DNA from: Streptomyces sp. WMMC500
Lineage (GTDB): Bacteria > Actinomycetota > Actinomycetes > Streptomycetales > Streptomycetaceae
Assembly: GCF_027497195.1 (NCBI RefSeq)
Contig: NZ_CP114905.1
Span: 6,087,001-6,151,000 of the forward strand
Reading direction: 5' to 3'
DNA length: 64,000 nt
In this document: piece after piece, positions 35,667 through 46,292 of the stretch
Position numbering within the stretch: position 1 is the stretch's first letter
How the letters are laid out: every line of letters starts with the position of its first letter
The notes under the pieces: generated by a model
Seen by the model: only the letters and a program-made list of their open reading frames with translations
What the model was told of the DNA's origin: nothing
Databases searched by the model: none
Translations under genes and position numbers: made by a program

Positions 35667-37106
35667 ATGACCACTGCGAAGGTCCCGGAGGACGGCCGCG
35701 CGGCCAGGGCCTCCGACGAGGGCTACGAGCGCGGGCTCGGCAGCCGCCAGATCCAGATGATAGCCATCGGCGGCGCCATCGGAGTGGGCCTCTTCCTGGG
35801 TGCCGGCAAGATCATCGAGAAGGCCGGGCCCAGCCTCATCCTCCTCTACGCGCTCGCCGGCGTCGTCATCTTCTTCATCATGCGGGCCCTGGGCGAACTG
35901 CTGCTCTACCGGCCGGTCTCGGGCAGCTTCGCCGAGTACGCGCGCGAGTTCCTCGGCCCCTACTTCGGGTACGTCACGGGCTGGACGTACTGGCTGATGT
36001 GGGCCGTCACCGGCATGACCGAGCTGACCGCCGCAGCGATCTACATCAACTACTGGTGGCCCGCCGTCCCGCAGTGGCTCAGCGCGCTCGGCTTCCTTCT
36101 GCTCCTCTTCGGCGTCAACCTGATCTCGGTGAAGATCTTCGGTGAGCTGGAGTTCTGGTTCTCGATGGTCAAGGTCACCGCGATCATCGGCATGATCGTC
36201 ATCGGCGTCGGCGTCCTCACCCTCGGCTTCTCCGCCGCCGGATCCACCGCCACCACCACGAACCTCTGGAGCCACGGCGGCTTCTTCCCCCACGGCGTCG
36301 GCGACAGCCTCATGACCCTCCAGGGCGTGATGTTCGCCTACCTCGCCGTCGAACTCGTCGGCGTCACCGCGGGCGAGAGCGCGCACCCCGAGAAGAGCCT
36401 GCCCAAGGCGATCAACACGCTGCCGTGGCGGATCGTCGTCTTCTACGTCGGCTCGCTGATCGTCATCCTGTCCGTGGTCCGGTGGACGGAGTTCAGCGAC
36501 GGCGTCAGCCCGTTCGTCGCCGCCTTCGGCAGGATCGGCATCCCGCTGGCCGCCGGCATCGTGAACTTCGTCGTGCTCACCGCCGCCCTGTCGTCGTGCA
36601 ACTCCGGCATGTACTCCACCGGCCGCATGCTGCGCGACCTGGCCGCCAACGCCGAGGCGCCGAAGCTCTTCGGCAGACTGAGCCCGCGCCGGGTGCCGGC
36701 CGCGGGCATCGCCATGTCGGTCGTGGTCATGTCCGTCGGCGTGGTGCTCAACTACCTCGTGCCGGAGAAGGCGTTCGGCTACGTCATGTCCGTGGCCACC
36801 GCCGCCGGCATCTGGACGTGGGCGATGATCCTCGTCAGCCACATCCGCTACCGCCGCGCGGTCGTCGCCGGCCGGCTGCCCGCCTCGTCGTTCCCGGCGC
36901 CGGGCGGGGTGGTGTGCAGTTGGCTGGCGTTGGCGTTCCTCGCCTTCGTCACCGTGCTCACCGCGCTGGACGCCGACGCCCGCGTCTCGCTGTACGTGGG
37001 CGCCGGGTGGGCGGTGCTGCTGTCGGGCGGCTGGGCGCTGAGCCGGCGGCGGGCCGCGGCCCGCACGGGGGAGGCGGCGCCGGAGTACGCCGCGGGGGCG
37101 CAGTAG
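35667..37106 (+). CDS. Amino-acid permease (APC superfamily)
   Basis: The 479-residue protein has about 12 helices. Motifs are GLGSRQIQMIAIGGAIGVGLFLGAG at the N-terminus (helix 1), RALGELLLYRPVSGSFAEYA and MFAYLAVELVGVTAGESAHPEKSLPKAIN, all typical of the AAT family. It would import an amino acid with protons; the substrate is uncertain. The upstream region contains TGCAGTCGGGGGACTGCA, an 8-bp inverted repeat. Confidence 0.88.
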   Translation: MTTAKVPEDGRAARASDEGYERGLGSRQIQMIAIGGAIGVGLFLGAGKIIEKAGPSLILLYALAGVVIFFIMRALGELLLYRPVSGSFAEYAREFLGPYFGYVTGWTYWLMWAVTGMTELTAAAIYINYWWPAVPQWLSALGFLLLLFGVNLISVKIFGELEFWFSMVKVTAIIGMIVIGVGVLTLGFSAAGSTATTTNLWSHGGFFPHGVGDSLMTLQGVMFAYLAVELVGVTAGESAHPEKSLPKAINTLPWRIVVFYVGSLIVILSVVRWTEFSDGVSPFVAAFGRIGIPLAAGIVNFVVLTAALSSCNSGMYSTGRMLRDLAANAEAPKLFGRLSPRRVPAAGIAMSVVVMSVGVVLNYLVPEKAFGYVMSVATAAGIWTWAMILVSHIRYRRAVVAGRLPASSFPAPGGVVCSWLALAFLAFVTVLTALDADARVSLYVGAGWAVLLSGGWALSRRRAAARTGEAAPEYAAGAQ

Positions 37107-37164
37107 GCGGCGGGCCCGGCCCCGGGGGTGCCGCGCCCGCCGCCCGGCGCGTAGGGTCCGCGGG

Positions 37165-38639
<1,475 letters not shown>

Positions 38640-38703
38640 GAACTCATCGTATCGATTCCCCGTCCGCGTGCCGGATCGCCGTTTCATGATGCGGACCGGG
38701 TGC

Positions 38704-39156
38704 TCAGCGCGCGGGCGCGTCGTCGTAGGAGGCGACCACGGTGACGTCCTCCTCGGTGATCACACCGTCCACGATGCGGAACGACCGGAAGGAGACGGGC
38801 CCTTCACCGTTGCCGGACTCGGCGGTGGAGACCAGGACGTAGTGCGCGCCGGGCTCGTTGGCGTAGGAGACGTCGGTGCGGGACGGGTACGCCTCGGTGG
38901 CGGTGTGCGAGTGGTAGATCACCACCGGCTCCTCGTCGCGGTCGTCCATCTCCCGGTAGAGCCTGAGCAGGTCCTGCGAGTCGAACTCGTAGAACGTGGG
39001 GGAGCGGGCGGCGTTGAGCATGGGGATGAAGCGCCGCGGCCGGCCGTCGGCGGGTGCGGGGGCCGGGCCCGCGACGACGCCGCACGCCTCGTCGGGGTGG
39101 TCCTTGCGGGCGTGGGCGACGATCTGCTCGTACAGCTCCTCCGAGATGGTCAGCAT
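38704..39156 (-). CDS. mec: JAMM/MPN+ metalloprotease (Mec), CysO processing
   Basis: The 150-residue zinc protease has the JAMM signature HSHTATEAYPSRTD (His82, His84, Ser92, Asp95) and an upstream Glu23. In mycobacteria Mec+ cleaves cysteine from CysO-Cys; here it should also trim the Ser-Val tail of CysO. It lies just upstream of the leader peptide and cysO on the same strand. Confidence 0.9.
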   Translation of the reverse strand: MLTISEELYEQIVAHARKDHPDEACGVVAGPAPAPADGRPRRFIPMLNAARSPTFYEFDSQDLLRLYREMDDRDEEPVVIYHSHTATEAYPSRTDVSYANEPGAHYVLVSTAESGNGEGPVSFRSFRIVDGVITEEDVTVVASYDDAPAR

Positions 39157-39266
39157 GGGCGCAAGGATGACACGGCGGCGGAGGGCGTACCTCGTACGTT
39201 CCGAACGCTGAGACGAATCGGCTCGGATGCCGGGCGGGCGCCGCCGGGCAGGGGTGCCGGGCGGCC

Positions 39267-39722
39267 TCAGGTGTCCGACAGGTGGCGGACCTGGTCCCAC
39301 ACCGCCGGGTCCACCGGGCCGGACCTGCGGCGGAAGTCCCGGAGGTGGATCTCGCGCAACTCGTCCGTCGCCAGGAACCCCGGGCGGCCCCGGGCGTCGT
39401 CGACGGTGGCGGGCGGCAGCGGGATCACGCCGGGCCGCTCGCCGTCCCGCCGGGTGGTGATCCGGGCCACCGTCACGGTGACGCCGGCGGTCTTCACCAC
39501 CAGGCACGGCGCCACGCCGTCGGCGGCGTACCCGTCCTCGTCTCCGTCGTCGTCCCCGTCCGGGACGCGCGCCCACCACACCTCGCCCGGCCGCGGCCCG
39601 GCGCCCCGCTCGCCCTCCGGCCGCCGGTGCGCGCGCCGCACCCGCCCGAAGCTGTCGACCAGCCCGGCGATCACGGCCAGCACCACCACGGCCACGATGG
39701 CCGGCCACCACGAGGTGTCCAT
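39267..39722 (-). CDS. Membrane-anchored PemK/MazF-like protein
   Basis: The 151-residue protein has an N-terminal transmembrane helix (WWPAIVAVVVLAVIAGLVDSF). A SH3-like MazF fold follows, starting GPRPGEVWWARVPDGD and continuing APCLVVKTAGVTVTVARITTRRDG. An Asp-rich insert (DGDDDGDEDGY) replaces the first loop. There is no antitoxin. It may not be an RNase. It is 110 bp upstream of mec. Confidence 0.7.
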   Translation of the reverse strand: MDTSWWPAIVAVVVLAVIAGLVDSFGRVRRAHRRPEGERGAGPRPGEVWWARVPDGDDDGDEDGYAADGVAPCLVVKTAGVTVTVARITTRRDGERPGVIPLPPATVDDARGRPGFLATDELREIHLRDFRRRSGPVDPAVWDQVRHLSDT

Positions 39723-39959
39723 GCGCCGATCCTAGGACCTGCCCCCGTCTCCCGCCCGCGTCGTGACACCGGCGCCCCCGCGTCGTGCCGCGGCCGACGC
39801 CGCGCAGGTGGGCACGCGGACCGTGCCCCGTCGCCATACTGGTGATTCCGCCCACAACCGGGATGGCCGGGGGACCGCTGCGGCCCGTCCCGGCTTACCC
39901 TCGGCAGAGCCGGCGGGGCATCGTCGCCCCGTCCCGACCGTGCCGGAGGTCCCTCCCCG

Positions 39960-40712
39960 ATGAAGCTCACCGTCGTCGGTTGCTCGGGCTCGTTCCCGTC
40001 CGCGGACTCCGCGTGTTCGAGCTACCTGGTCGAGGCGGAGGGCTTTTCGCTCCTGCTCGACATGGGCAACGGCGCGCTGGGGGCACTGCAGCAGCACTGC
40101 GGACTGTACGACCTCGACGCCATCCTGCTGAGCCACCTGCACGCGGACCACTGCATCGACATGTGCGCCTACTTCGTCGCGCGCTACTACCGCCACGACG
40201 GCGGCCCCGCCGAGGTGCTCCCCGTCTACGGCCCCAAGGGCACGGAGCAGCGGCTGACCACGGCATACGCGGACACCCCCTCGGAGACGTCGATGAGCGA
40301 GGTCTTCGACTTCCGGGCGCTGGAGCGCAGCGCGTTCGAGATCGGCCCGTTCACGGTGCACGCGGACCGGGTGAGCCACCCCGTCGAGGCGTACGCCTTC
40401 CGGATCGAGCACGGCGGGCGCAGCCTCGTCTACTCCGGCGACACCGGCCCCTGCGGGGCGCTGACCGAACTGAGCGCGGACGCCGATCTGCTGCTGTGCG
40501 AGGCGGCGTTCACGCACGGCCGCGAGGAGATCCCCGACCTCCACCTCAACGGCCGCGAGGCGGGCGAGGCCGCCGCGGCGGCGGGGGTGGGGCGGCTGGT
40601 GCTGACCCACATCCCGCCGTGGACGGACCCGCAGGTGAACCTGCGGGACGCGAAGGGCGCGTACGAGGGGCCCGTCGAACTGGCGCGCGCGGGCGCGGTG
40701 TACGAGGTCTGA
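39960..40712 (+). CDS. Metallo-beta-lactamase-fold hydrolase
   Basis: The 250-residue protein has the metal motif SHLHADHCID, His in DRVSHPVEAY, YSGDTGPCGAL (Asp) and LTHIPPW (His), as in RNase Z-like phosphodiesterases. GGAGG precedes the ATG. It lies between the PTS locus and the cysteine cluster on a syntenic block near rph. Substrate unknown; an RNA or cyclic nucleotide phosphodiester is plausible. Confidence 0.88.
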   Translation: MKLTVVGCSGSFPSADSACSSYLVEAEGFSLLLDMGNGALGALQQHCGLYDLDAILLSHLHADHCIDMCAYFVARYYRHDGGPAEVLPVYGPKGTEQRLTTAYADTPSETSMSEVFDFRALERSAFEIGPFTVHADRVSHPVEAYAFRIEHGGRSLVYSGDTGPCGALTELSADADLLLCEAAFTHGREEIPDLHLNGREAGEAAAAAGVGRLVLTHIPPWTDPQVNLRDAKGAYEGPVELARAGAVYEV

Positions 40713-40721
40713 GGGTCCCCC

Positions 40722-41479
40722 TCACGCCTTGTACTGGGCCTTCTCCTCCTCCGCTATCTCCTCGTCGGTCTCCCGGCCCGGGGTGGGCAGGTTGAACCTG
40801 ACGATGGCGAAGCGGAAGATCACGTAGTAGACCGCCGCGAAGCACAGCCCCATCAGCGCCAGCCCCCACGGGTTGGTCGCGATGCCGAGGTTGTGCAGGC
40901 CCGTACCGAGGACCGGCCAGATGTAGCCGAAGGCGACGCCGAGGAGCAGGCCCGCGAAGGACCATGCTGCCTATCGCGACGCTGCCTGCCGCCGCGCTGC
41001 TCACCCGGCTCGGCGCCCCCGACATGCTGGGCAAGGAGTCCCTGCCGGACTCCCTCAACAGGATCGGCGAGTTCATGGCCGCGGGCGGCTGCGCGCTGCT
41101 CGACAACATGGCGATCCTCTTCGCCATCGGCATCGCGATCGGCTTCGCGCGCAAGTCCGACGGCTCCACCGCGCTCGCCGCCGTCGTCGGCTACCTGGTC
41201 TTCAGCAACGTCCTCGGCACCTTCCACGACGACAACACCGACGCCCCCGTCGACGCCGGCGTCCTCGGCGTCGTCGTCGTCATCGGCCTCGTCGCCGCGC
41301 TTCTCTACCAGCGGTACAGCCGCACCAAACTCCCCGACTAGCTCGGCTTCTTCGGCGGTCGCCGGCTCGTGCCGATCCTCACAGGCTGCGGCCCAGGCGC
41401 TGGGCGTTGGCCATGATGCGGGACCCGCGGCCCTCTTGCCGGCCTGGTCGGCACCGGCCGATACGGAAGCCGTGGACAT
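40722..41479 (-). pseudogene. nagE: PTS EIIC permease (GlcNAc/glucose type), scrambled by inversion
   Basis: Minus-strand pieces encode MSTASVSAGADQAG... (start 41479) then, in a shifted frame, MANAQRLGRSL. The plus strand (40963-41382) encodes the next part, MLPIATLPAAALLTRLG... to RRLVPILT. The minus strand resumes with SFAGLLLGVAFGYIWPVLG and jumps to ATNPWGLALMGLCFAAVYYVIFRF...PTPGRE. Inverting 40963-41382 back rejoins GRSL+MLPIATLP and LVPILT+SFAGLLL, proving an inversion. A nonsense TAG (41339) replaces a conserved Trp codon, and about 170 residues of the EIIC centre are missing. The gene cannot work. A dre-like site lies upstream. Confidence 0.85.
40963..41382 (+). other. Inverted 0.42-kb segment of the EIIC gene
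   Basis: This block is in the opposite orientation to the rest of the gene. It has its own ATG-opened reading frame of 125 residues, but it is an N-terminal EIIC fragment rather than a separate gene. No long inverted repeats are seen at its ends, so switchable inversion is not supported. Confidence 0.8.
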
Positions 41480-41501
41480 CACACTCCTCCATCGGAACGC
41501 A

Positions 41502-41517
41502 GGTGGTCTACACCTTT
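41502..41517. promoter_or_regulatory. DasR-like dre site upstream of nagE
   Basis: GGTGGTCTACACCTTT matches the dre consensus ACTGGTCTAGACCACT at about 11 of 16 positions, including TGGTCTA and ACC. It is 23 bp upstream of the nagE start. DasR represses GlcNAc uptake genes in Streptomyces. Confidence 0.7.
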
Positions 41518-41651
41518 GAGTGATGTAGGCCTGTTCTCATACGGGGAGTGCGGCTGACGGAATATTCTATTCCGATCGCGGGCGCTGCCGGGGTATTAAG
41601 TCCCGTTTTGCGGATATCGGCGAGGTCGGCGCTTCTCGCCGGCTGGCGCAT

Positions 41652-41667
41652 AGTGGAGTAGACCAGT
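41652..41667. promoter_or_regulatory. DasR-like dre site upstream of EIIB
   Basis: AGTGGAGTAGACCAGT matches the dre consensus at 13 of 16 positions. It is 32 bp ahead of the EIIB start, so DasR should control this gene too. Confidence 0.75.
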
Positions 41668-41698
41668 GCCCTCATGGGAGAAACCTGGAGCGTGTGGC

Positions 41699-41932
41699 AT
41701 GCCCAGCAAGGCTGAGAAGATCGTCGCTGGCCTCGGCGGGATCGGGAACATCGACGAGATTGAGGGCTGCATCACCCGCCTCCGCACGGAGGTCGTGGAC
41801 CCGGCGCTGGTCGACGACGCCGCGCTGAAGGCCGCGGGCGCCCACGGCGTCGTCCACCTGGGCACGGCGGTCCAGGTCGTCGTCGGCACGGACGCGGACC
41901 CCCTGGCCGCGGAGATCGAGGACATGATGTAG
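41699..41932 (+). CDS. nagF: PTS EIIB subunit (glucose/GlcNAc type)
   Basis: The 77-residue EIIB protein has the phosphorylated Cys24 in IEGCITRLR. The fold and length match NagF of the Streptomyces GlcNAc PTS. It is divergent from the dead nagE gene, and its own reading frame is intact, so it is orphaned in this window. ATG 41699 (MPSKAEKIV) has GAGAAACCTGGAG-type upstream sequence. Confidence 0.9.
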   Translation: MPSKAEKIVAGLGGIGNIDEIEGCITRLRTEVVDPALVDDAALKAAGAHGVVHLGTAVQVVVGTDADPLAAEIEDMM

Positions 41933-41934
41933 TC

Positions 41935-41976
41935 GACGGGGACGGGGACGGGGACGGGGACGGGGACGGGGACGGG
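41935..41976 (+). repeat. Microsatellite (GACGGG)7
   Basis: Seven perfect 6-bp copies start 2 bp after the EIIB stop. Runs of GGG every 6 bp on the plus strand could form a G-quadruplex and may act in transcription termination, but that is inferred. Confidence 0.75.
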
Positions 41977-42377
41977 CCGCGGGGCCTCGTCCGGGGGTGG
42001 GGGCTGTGGCGGGGGTCGGGGCGGGGCGCGTTGCGTATCCGTCGACGGAGCGCGTTCGGCGAGGACCGGGTGTCTGCTTCGTCCGACCTGCCTGAGTTTG
42101 CCTCCGGCTTGGTCTCCGAAATCACCAACGATCCGGATGCCTGCGGAACTTTGCCACGCCCTGCGCGTAACCGGAGCGGAGCGTTCGGATATGCCGGTTC
42201 CGGCAACTCTCATCCTGCGGAATGCAGAATGGAATTTCAGTTGCCTGGGTGTGGCGGCAGCGGAACGCACCCCTGCCTCCACGTTATCCACAGGCTCAAA
42301 TCCGGGGTGGTGGAGGCCGCGGCGGCTCCGATAGCGTCGTCTGCCTGACGTATCGTCACCGCTACCGGGAGTTGATC
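41977..42377. other. 401-bp intergenic region, no clear gene
   Basis: This stretch separates the PTS locus from the WXG-type cluster. It is lower in GC than its flanks, from about 42060. No reading frame with Streptomyces codon use was seen. It probably holds the promoter of the following cluster. TTATCCACA (42284-42292) matches a DnaA box, but singly. Confidence 0.5.
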
Positions 42378-43028
42378 GTGTCCCCCCGCGCCCTTTCCGC
42401 CGCCGCGCTGGCGGCTGTTGCCACCCTGAGCCTGCTGCTGACCGCGTGCGGCGGCGACGAGGAAGGTGACCCCCCTTCGGACGACAAGATCCAGGGCGCC
42501 GACAAGGGGGAGGAGTCGCCCTCGCCGAGCGCTCCGGAGGAGGCGGCGGGCAGACCGGAGATCAAGCTTCCTGAGGACATCACGTACCAGTTCGAGTGGT
42601 CCAAGACCGGTGATCCGGACAAGGACGCCGTGCTCCAGGACGGGGAGCAGCTCATCAAGGCGATCGACATGGCGATTGTGGAGCAGGATCCGACCCACGA
42701 GGCGTTGCTGTTCTACACCGAGGGTGATGCAGCGGCGGAAGCTGAGCGGTTCGTCCAGGGCTACGTAGACGACAAGGACCGCACGACAGGGCGTTACCGC
42801 TTCTACAACGAGCAGGTGCAAGTCGCAGGAGACGGCACGGCGACGCTGCTGTATTGCGAAGACCAGTCGAAGGCGTATGCCAAGTCATTGAAGACCGGCA
42901 AGGTTTACGTGACGGATCCTTCCGCAGATGACTACGTCGTCTACAACTCCAAGATGCGCAAAGACGGCAACGGCGTGTGGGTCACCGAGGAGATCTTGGC
43001 GGAGAGGGGGGCCGCACAGTGTCAGTAG
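42378..43028 (+). CDS. Lipoprotein heading the WXG-type cluster
   Basis: The 216-residue product has a signal with lipobox LLLTAC (Cys24), an acidic Ser/Pro linker and a mature domain (ITYQFEWSKTGDPDKDAVLQDGEQLIKAIDMAIVEQD..). The domain pairs with the secreted protein below it. GGGAG lies 6 bp before the GTG. The mature part is found in actinomycete type VII-like clusters as I recall, but the function is unknown. Confidence 0.75.
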   Translation: MSPRALSAAALAAVATLSLLLTACGGDEEGDPPSDDKIQGADKGEESPSPSAPEEAAGRPEIKLPEDITYQFEWSKTGDPDKDAVLQDGEQLIKAIDMAIVEQDPTHEALLFYTEGDAAAEAERFVQGYVDDKDRTTGRYRFYNEQVQVAGDGTATLLYCEDQSKAYAKSLKTGKVYVTDPSADDYVVYNSKMRKDGNGVWVTEEILAERGAAQCQ

Positions 43029-44113
43029 TGCGAATGCTGCGCAGGATCGCCGTTGTGGTCGGTGCTTCGGTGGTCTTAGCAATCACCGCTGCACCGGTTC
43101 ATGCAGGAGATGACAAGGGGGACGGCGACGTTTTCGGTGGTGGCGGCGACGGCGGCGAGTACACCGATGGCGGTGCCGAGGGGCAAGTGCTCGACGCAGG
43201 GTCCGGCGGGATGGTGATCGACGAGTCTGCGAATGGGCCGGGGGCTGGGGGAGGGCCCCGCGGGTCCGGTGGAGCGCTGGATCCGGTGGGAGATTGGTCG
43301 CCGCCGCCGTGCTGGTATGCGCCGAAGTACACGCCCGAGCAACTGAAGAAGGAGCGGGAGCACACCTGGTCGCTGGACTCCACGGGCCATCAGTTCGACA
43401 GTATGGAGCGGGCCAAGTACGTGACGGGCGGTATTGAACCGGGAACGTACAAAGACTTCAACATGGCCAAGTCTGGTAAGGGCTTCTGGTGGGACGGCTA
43501 CGTGCCGGACGGTGGTGAGGGCGTCCCCGGAGCGATGGACTGCGACGAGGGGCCGTTCTGGGTGGACAGGGGCGATCCCCCGCCGGCCCAGTACGAGAAT
43601 GCCGTCACGCCGCAGATTCTCGCGGAGCTCGCTTACGACCGTATTCGCGTGCCGGACACCGAGATCAGCCTCAAGCCCGACGCGGAGAACGCGCAGAAGG
43701 TGAACCTCCCCACCTGGGCCTGGCTGGACGACGCCACCTTCGAACCCGTCTCGGTCACCGCCAGGGTGCCGGTGCTGGGCTTATGGGCCAGAACCACCGC
43801 CACCCCCGTCTCGCTCACCATCGACCCCGGCACCGACGAGGCCGAGTTGCATCCCTCCTCGGGCACCTGCCCCATCAACGACGACGGCTCCATCGGCACC
43901 CCGTACTCACCGGGGTCGGCCGAGGAGACGCCGCCGTGCGGGCTGACCTACCTGCGTGCCACGCCGGACGGTGAGACCTATCCGTTCCGGGCCACGATCA
44001 CCTGGTCCATCGAATGGGAAGGCTCCGGCGACACGGGCGGCGACCTGCCCGACGGTTCCTTCGGCGCGACCACCGAGCTGGAGGTCGACGAGATCCAGTC
44101 CATCGTCCGCTGA
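43019..44113 (+). CDS. Secreted protein of the WXG-type cluster
   Basis: The 364-residue product has a signal peptide (VSVVRMLRRIAVVVGASVVLAITAAPVHA), then a Gly-rich acidic segment and a compact domain (WSPPPCWYAPKYTPEQLKKE, WLDDATFEPVSVTARVPVLGLWARTTATPVSLTIDPG). It overlaps the previous gene by 10 bp, so they are coupled. Databases often call relatives 'enoyl reductase' wrongly; no such motif is present. Function unknown. Confidence 0.75.
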   Translation: MSVVRMLRRIAVVVGASVVLAITAAPVHAGDDKGDGDVFGGGGDGGEYTDGGAEGQVLDAGSGGMVIDESANGPGAGGGPRGSGGALDPVGDWSPPPCWYAPKYTPEQLKKEREHTWSLDSTGHQFDSMERAKYVTGGIEPGTYKDFNMAKSGKGFWWDGYVPDGGEGVPGAMDCDEGPFWVDRGDPPPAQYENAVTPQILAELAYDRIRVPDTEISLKPDAENAQKVNLPTWAWLDDATFEPVSVTARVPVLGLWARTTATPVSLTIDPGTDEAELHPSSGTCPINDDGSIGTPYSPGSAEETPPCGLTYLRATPDGETYPFRATITWSIEWEGSGDTGGDLPDGSFGATTELEVDEIQSIVR

Positions 44114-44131
44114 CGCGCGTGAGGAGGGCAT

Positions 44132-44446
44132 GTGAGCGATCTGTACGTGGACATGGAGACCCTCGACCGGGTCCGGCGCAACATCGAGCGCATATCGGAG
44201 CTGATGAAGCGGCCGGGCCGGGAGATGGAGGAGGTCGACGGCTGGTCCATGGGCGTGGACGCGCTGGCCAGTCGGATGGATGAGTTCGGGGACGAGTGGT
44301 CGTACGGCATCGGGCAGATCGAGAAGTTCTCCGATGCCGCGTCGGAGGCCCTGCTGAAGGTCAAGCAGGAGTTTCAACGGGTGGACGGTGAGCTTGCCGA
44401 CGCCCTCCCGCGATCGCGCTCCCAGGCCGGCGGGGGACGTGCATGA
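44132..44446 (+). CDS. Small WXG100-like helical protein
   Basis: The 104-residue protein (VSDLYVDMETLDRVRRNIERISELMKRPG...) is all-helical with a central W-x-x-G (DGWSMGVDALASR) in a helix-turn-helix, matching ESX/WXG100 substrates. It starts with GTG and ends in an ATGA overlap with the next gene. It is likely a secretion partner of that protein. Confidence 0.75.
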   Translation: MSDLYVDMETLDRVRRNIERISELMKRPGREMEEVDGWSMGVDALASRMDEFGDEWSYGIGQIEKFSDAASEALLKVKQEFQRVDGELADALPRSRSQAGGGRA

Positions 44447-45678
44447 GTGCGTTACAGCCGGCCGACTTCTCCTCCCTCGGGTTCATGCCCTGCCCGGGGG
44501 ACCTGCGCGGGGCCGAGAACGTCGCCGGGGTGGTGCGGCGGACGGCGCGGGCGCTGTCGGAGATATCCCACGTGCTGCACGGCACCGGGCCGGGGGACTG
44601 GAAGGGAAAGGCGGCGGAGGCGTTCCGCGAGAAGTTCGAGGACGACTTCCGGCCCAAGATGGACGAGGCCCGTGACTCGTTCGGCATGGCCGCCACGGCC
44701 CTGGAGGGCTGGGCCGAGTACATGCGTGTCCAGCAGGCGACGGCGCGCCGGCTGGAGCGGGAGGCCGAGGACGCCGAGCGCGAACTGAGCAAGGCGCTGC
44801 GCAAACTGGACTCGGCCACCGATGACGACGAGCCCTCGGACAGCGGCTCCCCGGACCGGTACCGGCAAGCCAGCACGGCAGGGGACAAGCCAGATCGGGC
44901 CCGCGAGGAGGAGCAGCGCCGGGAGGCGCAGGGCGCGGTCGACGACGCCTCCGTGCGGCTGGAAGACGTACGCCGCCGCGCCCGTTCGCTGGCCGACGAC
45001 TACCGGGCGGAAGGACACGCGGTCGCGAACCGCCTCCGCGGCGCGATGGAGATCGCCCCGGACGAGCCCGGACTGTTCGACAAGATCGGCGACACCATCA
45101 GCGATCTGTCCGGCTCGTTCGGCGAGTACCTGGAGACGGTCACCGAGGGCATCGCCAAGCTGGCCGACGACGTCGTCCAGTGGGTGGAGGACCACGCGGC
45201 CAACATCGCTGCGGTCGGGGATGTGTTCGCGGCCGTCAGCGCGGTATTCGGGGCAATCTCTACGGCTCTCTACATCGCTACCGCGGCGACTAAGATTCCC
45301 CACCTCGCATTGGCTGCTGCCGCTTTCGGTAACGTGGCGGAGGGTACGGCAACCCTTGCCTTCGCCGCGCACGGTCTAGCTCGGTTGGCAGGGGCCGATG
45401 TCTCAGATCGCACGTTAGCGCAGGATGCGGCGGGTGCAATCCCCTTCGGAGCTAACGTGCGATTTGTAGGGAACACTGGACGGGCTATTGCGGATAGTCG
45501 ACACGCTGCAGGTGCCTCTATGCTCGGACTGCTCGACTCGTGGGCTGGGCTTAAGGAGAATCCCGAGGTGTTCGGTAATTTCATTCCCCAAAGCAACCGG
45601 CAGAAGGCGCAGATGTTCCTGCCCGGTGGGGGTGGCGTCATGCTCGTCGGGCTGGAGAACGCATGGAAATCGGCCTGA
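44443..45678 (+). CDS. Large WXG-domain protein with hydrophobic C-terminus, putative type VII effector
   Basis: The 411-residue protein has a helical N-terminal WXG-type domain (GDWKGKAAEAFREKFEDDF, W-K-G turn). A long Arg/Glu-rich coiled coil (about 90-210) comes next, then hydrophobic helices at 245-300 (AAVSAVFGAISTALYIATAATKIPHLALAAAAFG). A C-terminal domain ends FIPQSNRQKAQMFLPGGGG. From about 45240 the codons are less GC-rich than the first half, suggesting a swapped C-terminus. No toxin motif is recognised, so effector status is inferred. Confidence 0.7.
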   Translation: MSALQPADFSSLGFMPCPGDLRGAENVAGVVRRTARALSEISHVLHGTGPGDWKGKAAEAFREKFEDDFRPKMDEARDSFGMAATALEGWAEYMRVQQATARRLEREAEDAERELSKALRKLDSATDDDEPSDSGSPDRYRQASTAGDKPDRAREEEQRREAQGAVDDASVRLEDVRRRARSLADDYRAEGHAVANRLRGAMEIAPDEPGLFDKIGDTISDLSGSFGEYLETVTEGIAKLADDVVQWVEDHAANIAAVGDVFAAVSAVFGAISTALYIATAATKIPHLALAAAAFGNVAEGTATLAFAAHGLARLAGADVSDRTLAQDAAGAIPFGANVRFVGNTGRAIADSRHAAGASMLGLLDSWAGLKENPEVFGNFIPQSNRQKAQMFLPGGGGVMLVGLENAWKSA

Positions 45679-45698
45679 TTGTCTGGGAGTGATGTGGG

Positions 45699-46292
45699 AT
45701 GAATGATGGAGAAGTCATCGCCTACTTCGACGGACGGCCGACCGCGGAGATCACGATTCACTCGGCCTGGGACGTCCCGCGGATGGCCGACATGGCCTAT
45801 GAGTTCGGTTATGTGCTTTGCCGGGTCTTTCATTGGCGGAGCACGACACGGCTGGTCTTCGAGCGAGATGACACAGATCACGCACGGCGCAGAGCCGTAT
45901 GGTCCCTGAACTACTATCGAGCGTATGGAAGATGGGGTCGCCAGCAGCCCCAGTTTCAGCTTCCCAGCTATATGGGTCGCCGTGTTGAACCGCTGGATGC
46001 GGCGCGAGCACGCTATGCCTTGGCGCTTTTTCGGAACAAGGTGTGGCACGTGCGCCTGGCCATATCTGGGGCCGCGCTCATCGCCGTCGTCGTTTGGCAC
46101 TACCGAGACAGCGTCGCGGTGGTTGTCCCGGTGGCGCTGGCTGGCGGTTCACTGATGTTGGTCGCGGGCATTTCACCGTGGCTGCCGAGTAAGCGACTGA
46201 GGCGGTATGAGCAGACGGTGAAGACATTCGAGCTGCAGCAGGCGGTTGAGCGGGGGTTCATCCCGCCTCCGCCGCCCAGTAACGGAGACTGA
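45699..46292 (+). CDS. Two-TM membrane protein, candidate immunity or partner protein
   Basis: The 197-residue protein has a soluble N-terminus (IAYFDGRPTAEITIHSAWDVPRMADMAYEFGYVLCRVFHW) and two TM helices (LAISGAALIAVVVWHY, SVAVVVPVALAGGSLMLVAGI). It lies 20 bp behind the putative effector and shares its lower GC. The position suits an immunity protein, but the family is unknown. Confidence 0.6.
   Translation: MNDGEVIAYFDGRPTAEITIHSAWDVPRMADMAYEFGYVLCRVFHWRSTTRLVFERDDTDHARRRAVWSLNYYRAYGRWGRQQPQFQLPSYMGRRVEPLDAARARYALALFRNKVWHVRLAISGAALIAVVVWHYRDSVAVVVPVALAGGSLMLVAGISPWLPSKRLRRYEQTVKTFELQQAVERGFIPPPPPSNGD

Follow-up and report, generated by a model that had tools for sequence, protein, structure and literature searches.

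The locus described here lies in a 64-kb stretch of DNA (64,000 nucleotides, hereafter the window) from Streptomyces sp. WMMC500, whose genome (8,614,341 bp, completeness 99.97%) is assembled as a single contig. The locus comprises a PTS EIIC pseudogene of the nagE type (40722..41479, reverse strand; start codon at 41479, stop at 40722-40724), whose full ancestral extent was delimited by piecewise alignment to the intact gene of Streptomyces sp. CNH099. It is flanked by two intact genes, the conserved neighbour with an MBL fold (Lactamase_B_2; 39960..40712, forward strand) and a nagF-type PTS EIIB gene (41699..41932, forward strand) that holds the only PF00367 match of the genome. As expected of such an EIIC, the gene lies between the MBL-fold and EIIB genes on the strand opposite to them, and one continuous reading frame of full length, as in CNH099 (about 417 aa), is absent. 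The reversed part of the gene scores 68.0 bits against PF02378 (cut-off 30.7; profile positions 5-146 of 319), and the genome-wide search returned 87.5 bits over profile positions 5-162, with one TAG inside. In relatives, nagE-type genes likewise have the MBL-fold gene on one side and, diverging from them, the EIIB gene on the other, and we assign the broken gene as a nagE-type GlcNAc permease (PTS EIIC) on the basis of its family, its place and the gene names used in those relatives. No Rfam match (39000-43000) and no tRNA (36000-46000) was found around it. Among minor features, a short run of GGGGAC repeats (41935-41976) directly follows the EIIB stop codon, a 151-aa protein (39270-39722, reverse strand) gives a weak PemK/MazF-like match (E 5.5e-8; toxin-antitoxin type fold), and a 411-aa protein (44443-45675, forward strand) carries a putative type VII secretion signal domain (PF21725, E 2.5e-9).

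According to the available sections of the respective papers, S. coelicolor imports GlcNAc via NagE2 (PMC6167110), a permease that constitutes the first step of the DasR cascade towards antibiotics (PMC6167110, PMC4398421), and DasR binds boxes near both nagE1 and nagE2 (PMC4398421). NagE1 and NagE2 (SCO2906/SCO2907) share the Pfam family of the present gene and have DasR-box-like sites upstream in the same manner, whereas here a single, broken copy is found, its likeness to them being one of family, place and relatives' gene names. Upstream of the EIIB gene, the site at 41652..41667 agrees with 14 of the 16 positions of the DasR box consensus (as given in the available text of PMC4398421), and no other match to the full palindrome with up to 3 mismatches occurs in the 64 kb of the window, where 0.04 matches would be expected. 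A weaker site (12/16) lies upstream of the EIIC pseudogene at 41502..41517, with identical letters in CNH099, and another (12/16) at 41519..41534. A score of at least 12 is reached in 4 of 225 stretches (280 bp each) taken along the window, those with the DasR-box-like sites being counted, so that the 12-of-16 sites are weak evidence.

Lesions were scored against Streptomyces sp. CNH099 (L083), the closest relative found among the matches listed, which carries the nagE-type gene at the same locus in intact form (417 aa, ancestral orientation), whereas the window gene is broken; the DNA of the two is 86-95% identical by piece. Blast resolved the alignment into 40724-40899 (94.9%), 40884-40961 (89.7%), the inverted 40963-41382 (90.0%) and 41383-41939 (85.7%), the last piece extending across the intergenic region and nagF, while the stretch with the MBL gene (39521-40715) is 88.4% identical. 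The preliminary description of this DNA had proposed an EIIC gene in three pieces of alternating orientation, and both the blastn comparison with relatives and the CNH099 alignment bear this out. Its proposal that reversing 40963-41382 mends both junctions proved right at each of them, with borders precise to one base against CNH099, as only base 40962 matches neither neighbour. The inverted segment (40963..41382, forward strand) measures 420 bp (417 bp in CNH099), its length being unchanged except for a 3-bp insertion (GTC, about 41269-41271) that had previously gone unremarked. Read along the gene strand, the order is thus the N-terminal part (41479-41383), 41382-40963 backwards, base 40962, the normally oriented bases from 40961 to about 40894, a deletion, and then the remainder up to the old stop.

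The further lesions that had been called from the letters were recovered at nucleotide level. A TAG (41339..41341, forward strand, in the frame of the inverted segment) replaces the Trp codon TGG, and the frameshift before MANAQ corresponds to a 1-bp deletion (41431..41433, reverse strand), GGG standing where CNH099 has GGGG. The deletion first put at about 170 residues exists and amounts to 498 bp (166 codons, in frame), although its two ends, both reported as NLG, fit this reading only roughly (HNFG and LNLG in CNH099). Its attribution to recombination at short homology agrees with the direct repeat GTTG[A/T]GCAGG (a 9-of-10-bp match) that the two ends share in CNH099; the junction lies at 40890..40899, with the switch inside the GTTG at 40890-40893. 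Alignment to relatives showed all inactivating lesions of the window gene to be absent from them.

The orientation itself was surveyed by the alignment with nagE of relatives that had been proposed at the outset, and the segment stands in the ancestral (opposite) orientation in 118/118 relative loci (L037-L056, L065-L162; some genomes being represented more than once). In blastn comparisons (19 loci, then 18) about 40963-41380 aligned to the strand opposite to that of the outer pieces. Of the 80 loci listed, 79 come from named Streptomyces and one from a Nocardia; that listing may omit records very close to the window itself. The inversion junction was found in no second genome among the listed matches of 392 genomes, in the 118 loci, or among the protein hits listed (best 120 of 281).

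The lesions are known here from the assembly, two of them (in the N-terminal G-run and in crr, described below) are single-base deletions that could be sequencing errors, and the inverted piece might in principle be a misjoin, with the gene intact in the living strain. We regard this as improbable. The assembly rules out the intact second nagE that had been named as a conceivable seed of a chimera: PF02378 is matched once in the genome, by the broken gene, and the 2-kb region is present in full length just once. The segment itself bears the TAG, the separate 498-bp deletion also breaks the gene, and neither these two lesions nor the inversion are of the sequencing-error type. Furthermore, the neighbouring MBL and nagF genes and 446 ptsI codons were compared, all of them without missing codons. 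The inversion is confirmed at the level of the assembly, and we read the locus as genuine recent decay of a nagE-type gene.

Intragenic invertons are phase-variable inversions inside coding sequence, and the present inversion, precise and likewise within coding sequence, resembles them in that respect; in contrast to them it has no inverted repeats at its borders and is accompanied by further inactivating lesions. The similarity between the inverted borders was no better than in shuffled sequence, in line with the earlier remark that long inverted repeats are missing at the breakpoints: it reached 18 within 50 bp on either side of the window borders (shuffle mean 17.1; attained by a fraction of 0.375 of 1000 shuffles), 13 in the outer 60 bp (mean 14.4; 0.747 of shuffles) and 19 at the ancestral borders in CNH099 (mean 17.2; 0.253 of shuffles). 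A repeat finder returned low-identity arms only. Phase switching, already judged doubtful, is indeed unlikely, because border inverted repeats are absent and flipping the segment back leaves the frame closed, as the TAG, the frameshift and the 498-bp deletion persist in either orientation. Considering also that no recombinase occurs among the ten neighbouring proteins scanned (35.7-45.7 kb) and that none of the 118 relative loci holds the inverted form, we give a reversible switch inside the permease gene hardly any credence. An imperfect border inverted repeat, suggested by blast extensions past the breakpoint in five genomes (G353, G137, G202, G104, G231), was also considered and rejected, since it did not rise above shuffles in the window or CNH099, the two sequences the test covered.

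A paralogous or foreign EIIC fragment inserted backwards would account for the modest likeness of the reversed piece to nagE of many relatives (about 70% identity, with a gap of about 38 bp) and for the almost ungapped match of a second EIIC group encoded elsewhere in some genomes. Against such a non-native origin, CNH099 holds the same piece in the same place and in native orientation, 90% identical and with exact borders, by which this candidate was ruled out, and strain ST2-7A (G353; L065, L084) also has the piece there, at 80%; we consider an inserted fragment exceedingly improbable.

The inverted segment contains an open frame of 125 aa (40964..41341, forward strand; PF02378 positions 5-146) whose ATG stands at the border, and one may ask whether the inversion has thereby made a new expressed gene on the forward strand. 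An AAGGA lies two bases ahead of that ATG, a short spacing for a ribosome site, and despite the PF02378 match the frame is simply the old one and the ATG an old internal Met. With the 125-aa query (subject lengths 0.55-1.75 of the query), the best protein hit over the whole query was 67% identical (best 120 of 281 hits), and the top identity among the hits listed was 78%, covering 73% of the query. We find a new gene scarcely credible and read the frame as a remnant of the decayed permease.

Compared with a phase switch, a one-time event (non-homologous or by template switching) is the likelier origin. The ends of the inverted segment are nearly blunt; two breaks may have been misjoined, or a replication template switch may have occurred. 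One complex event could possibly have produced the deletion as well, given that its junction is about 70 bp away from a border of the inversion. Repeat-associated bacterial inversions, as treated in the available text of PMC5372343, exceed 10 kb and are flanked by inverted repeats, whereas the window inversion spans 420 bp and lacks them. Among the matches listed for literature on intragenic or short non-homologous inversions, microinversions, invertons and Streptomyces PTS pseudogenes (including the available parts of PMC2483231 and PMC5372343), this case was not found. Small rearrangements in decaying genes are familiar, and the novelty of the case is modest; the interest of the inversion lies in its being well bounded, repeat-free, sub-kilobase and intragenic, with an intact relative that places it on one branch.

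What appears new is that the genome has no PF02378 EIIC match other than the broken gene and that crr (EIIA) also reads as frameshifted. In crr (G000:C1:8302168-8302532, L163, adjoining ptsI), two overlapping half matches lie in different frames, and one C missing in comparison with CNH099, where crr is open, accounts for the split. The missing base sits just before the HLGID motif, which holds the phosphorylated histidine of EIIA. Either the PTS carries a further lesion here, or the base was lost through a sequencing error. EI is encoded beside crr by an open frame of 638 residues, and HPr and EIIB have open frames as well, the intact EIIB gene (the sole PF00367 match) speaking against a full dismantling of the PTS. 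A match of the strength of FruA, common in relatives, was absent from this genome in the PF02378 search. Since the sole EIIC match is broken and crr reads as frameshifted, PTS sugar transport via the PF02378 family has probably been lost in this genome.

Substitutions were polarised with five outgroups (L084-L088). On the window branch, nagE had accumulated 14 nonsynonymous (13 missense, 1 nonsense) and 15 synonymous changes (248 of 418 codons, 9 unresolved), as compared with 16:52 in MBL, nagF and the 446 ptsI codons taken together (Fisher P = 0.029, uncorrected). The CNH099 branch leaned in the same direction (10:15 in nagE versus 15:43; P = 0.21), and crr gave 9:11 and 10:10 on the two branches, that is, no difference between them. 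In pairwise comparison, the nagE pieces had a dN/dS of 0.26, MBL one of 0.16 and nagF one of 0.17. These counts lend weak support to relaxed constraint on nagE along the window branch. The loss of nagE, as dated by comparison with the intact gene, came after the lineages of this genome and CNH099 had separated, and it is not old. We hold it to be very probable that the locus represents a recently decayed GlcNAc permease, struck by a one-off non-homologous inversion that was tolerated under lost selection on PTS uptake of GlcNAc, with crr decayed too.

A Streptomyces without an intact EIIC match, whose nearest relative retains one, would offer a natural experiment on DasR control without the import route, and it is mainly for GlcNAc/DasR signalling that the case may be useful. 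The available text of PMC4650096 counts CNH-099 among the marine MAR4 clade, and from its closeness to CNH099 we infer that the present genome belongs there as well. As reported in the accessible part of PMC12680351, CNH-099 and CNQ-509 are two streptomycetes without NagS, which is needed for GlcNAc sensing; this is also a loss in GlcNAc sensing, with the difference that a GlcNAc-6P dehydratase is missing there and a permease here. A more speculative reading, which we put forward tentatively and consider rather doubtful, is that this marine lineage is in the course of dismantling the GlcNAc-PTS route into DasR signalling (nagE and crr being broken here, and nagS reportedly missing from the nearest relative), that the nagE wreck arose in a single complex repair or template-switch episode, by which one piece was inverted and another, about 70 bp away, was deleted, and that nagE and crr tend to go missing together in the genus.

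The frequency of such losses was assessed in 392 Streptomyces genomes (this one included), which were searched for PF02378 with up to 5 best candidates scored per genome. Nine genomes had no match, and another nine (besides this one) had a weak best match only (E 8.8e-24 to 3.3e-18), while G203 (best 1.5e-40) was scored as having a nagE-type match. The loss in this genome is not unique, because 18 of the 391 others are without a nagE-type match. The EIIA (PF00358) match was missing from 7 of these 18 and from 24 of the remaining 373 (Fisher P = 0.0002, kinship and genome incompleteness being ignored); 20 of the 31 genomes without a PF00358 match were identified directly, and G294 was assigned to the other 11, being absent from the genomes with a match. 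The remaining 11 of the 18 retain an EIIA match, and thus EIIA without that partner. One genome without a nagE-type match (G014:C315:15054-16115) has a nagF EIIB within about 110 bp of the MBL match, and it seems to have lost nagE cleanly while keeping EIIB. A second group of nagE-like EIIC genes, without MBL and EIIB neighbours, was noted at G012:C1:5650964-5651887 and also in G098, G344, G307, G299, G327, G301 and G107; its members align to the window's segment almost without gaps, and several of these genomes carry an extra, higher-scoring EIIA match in a long frame.
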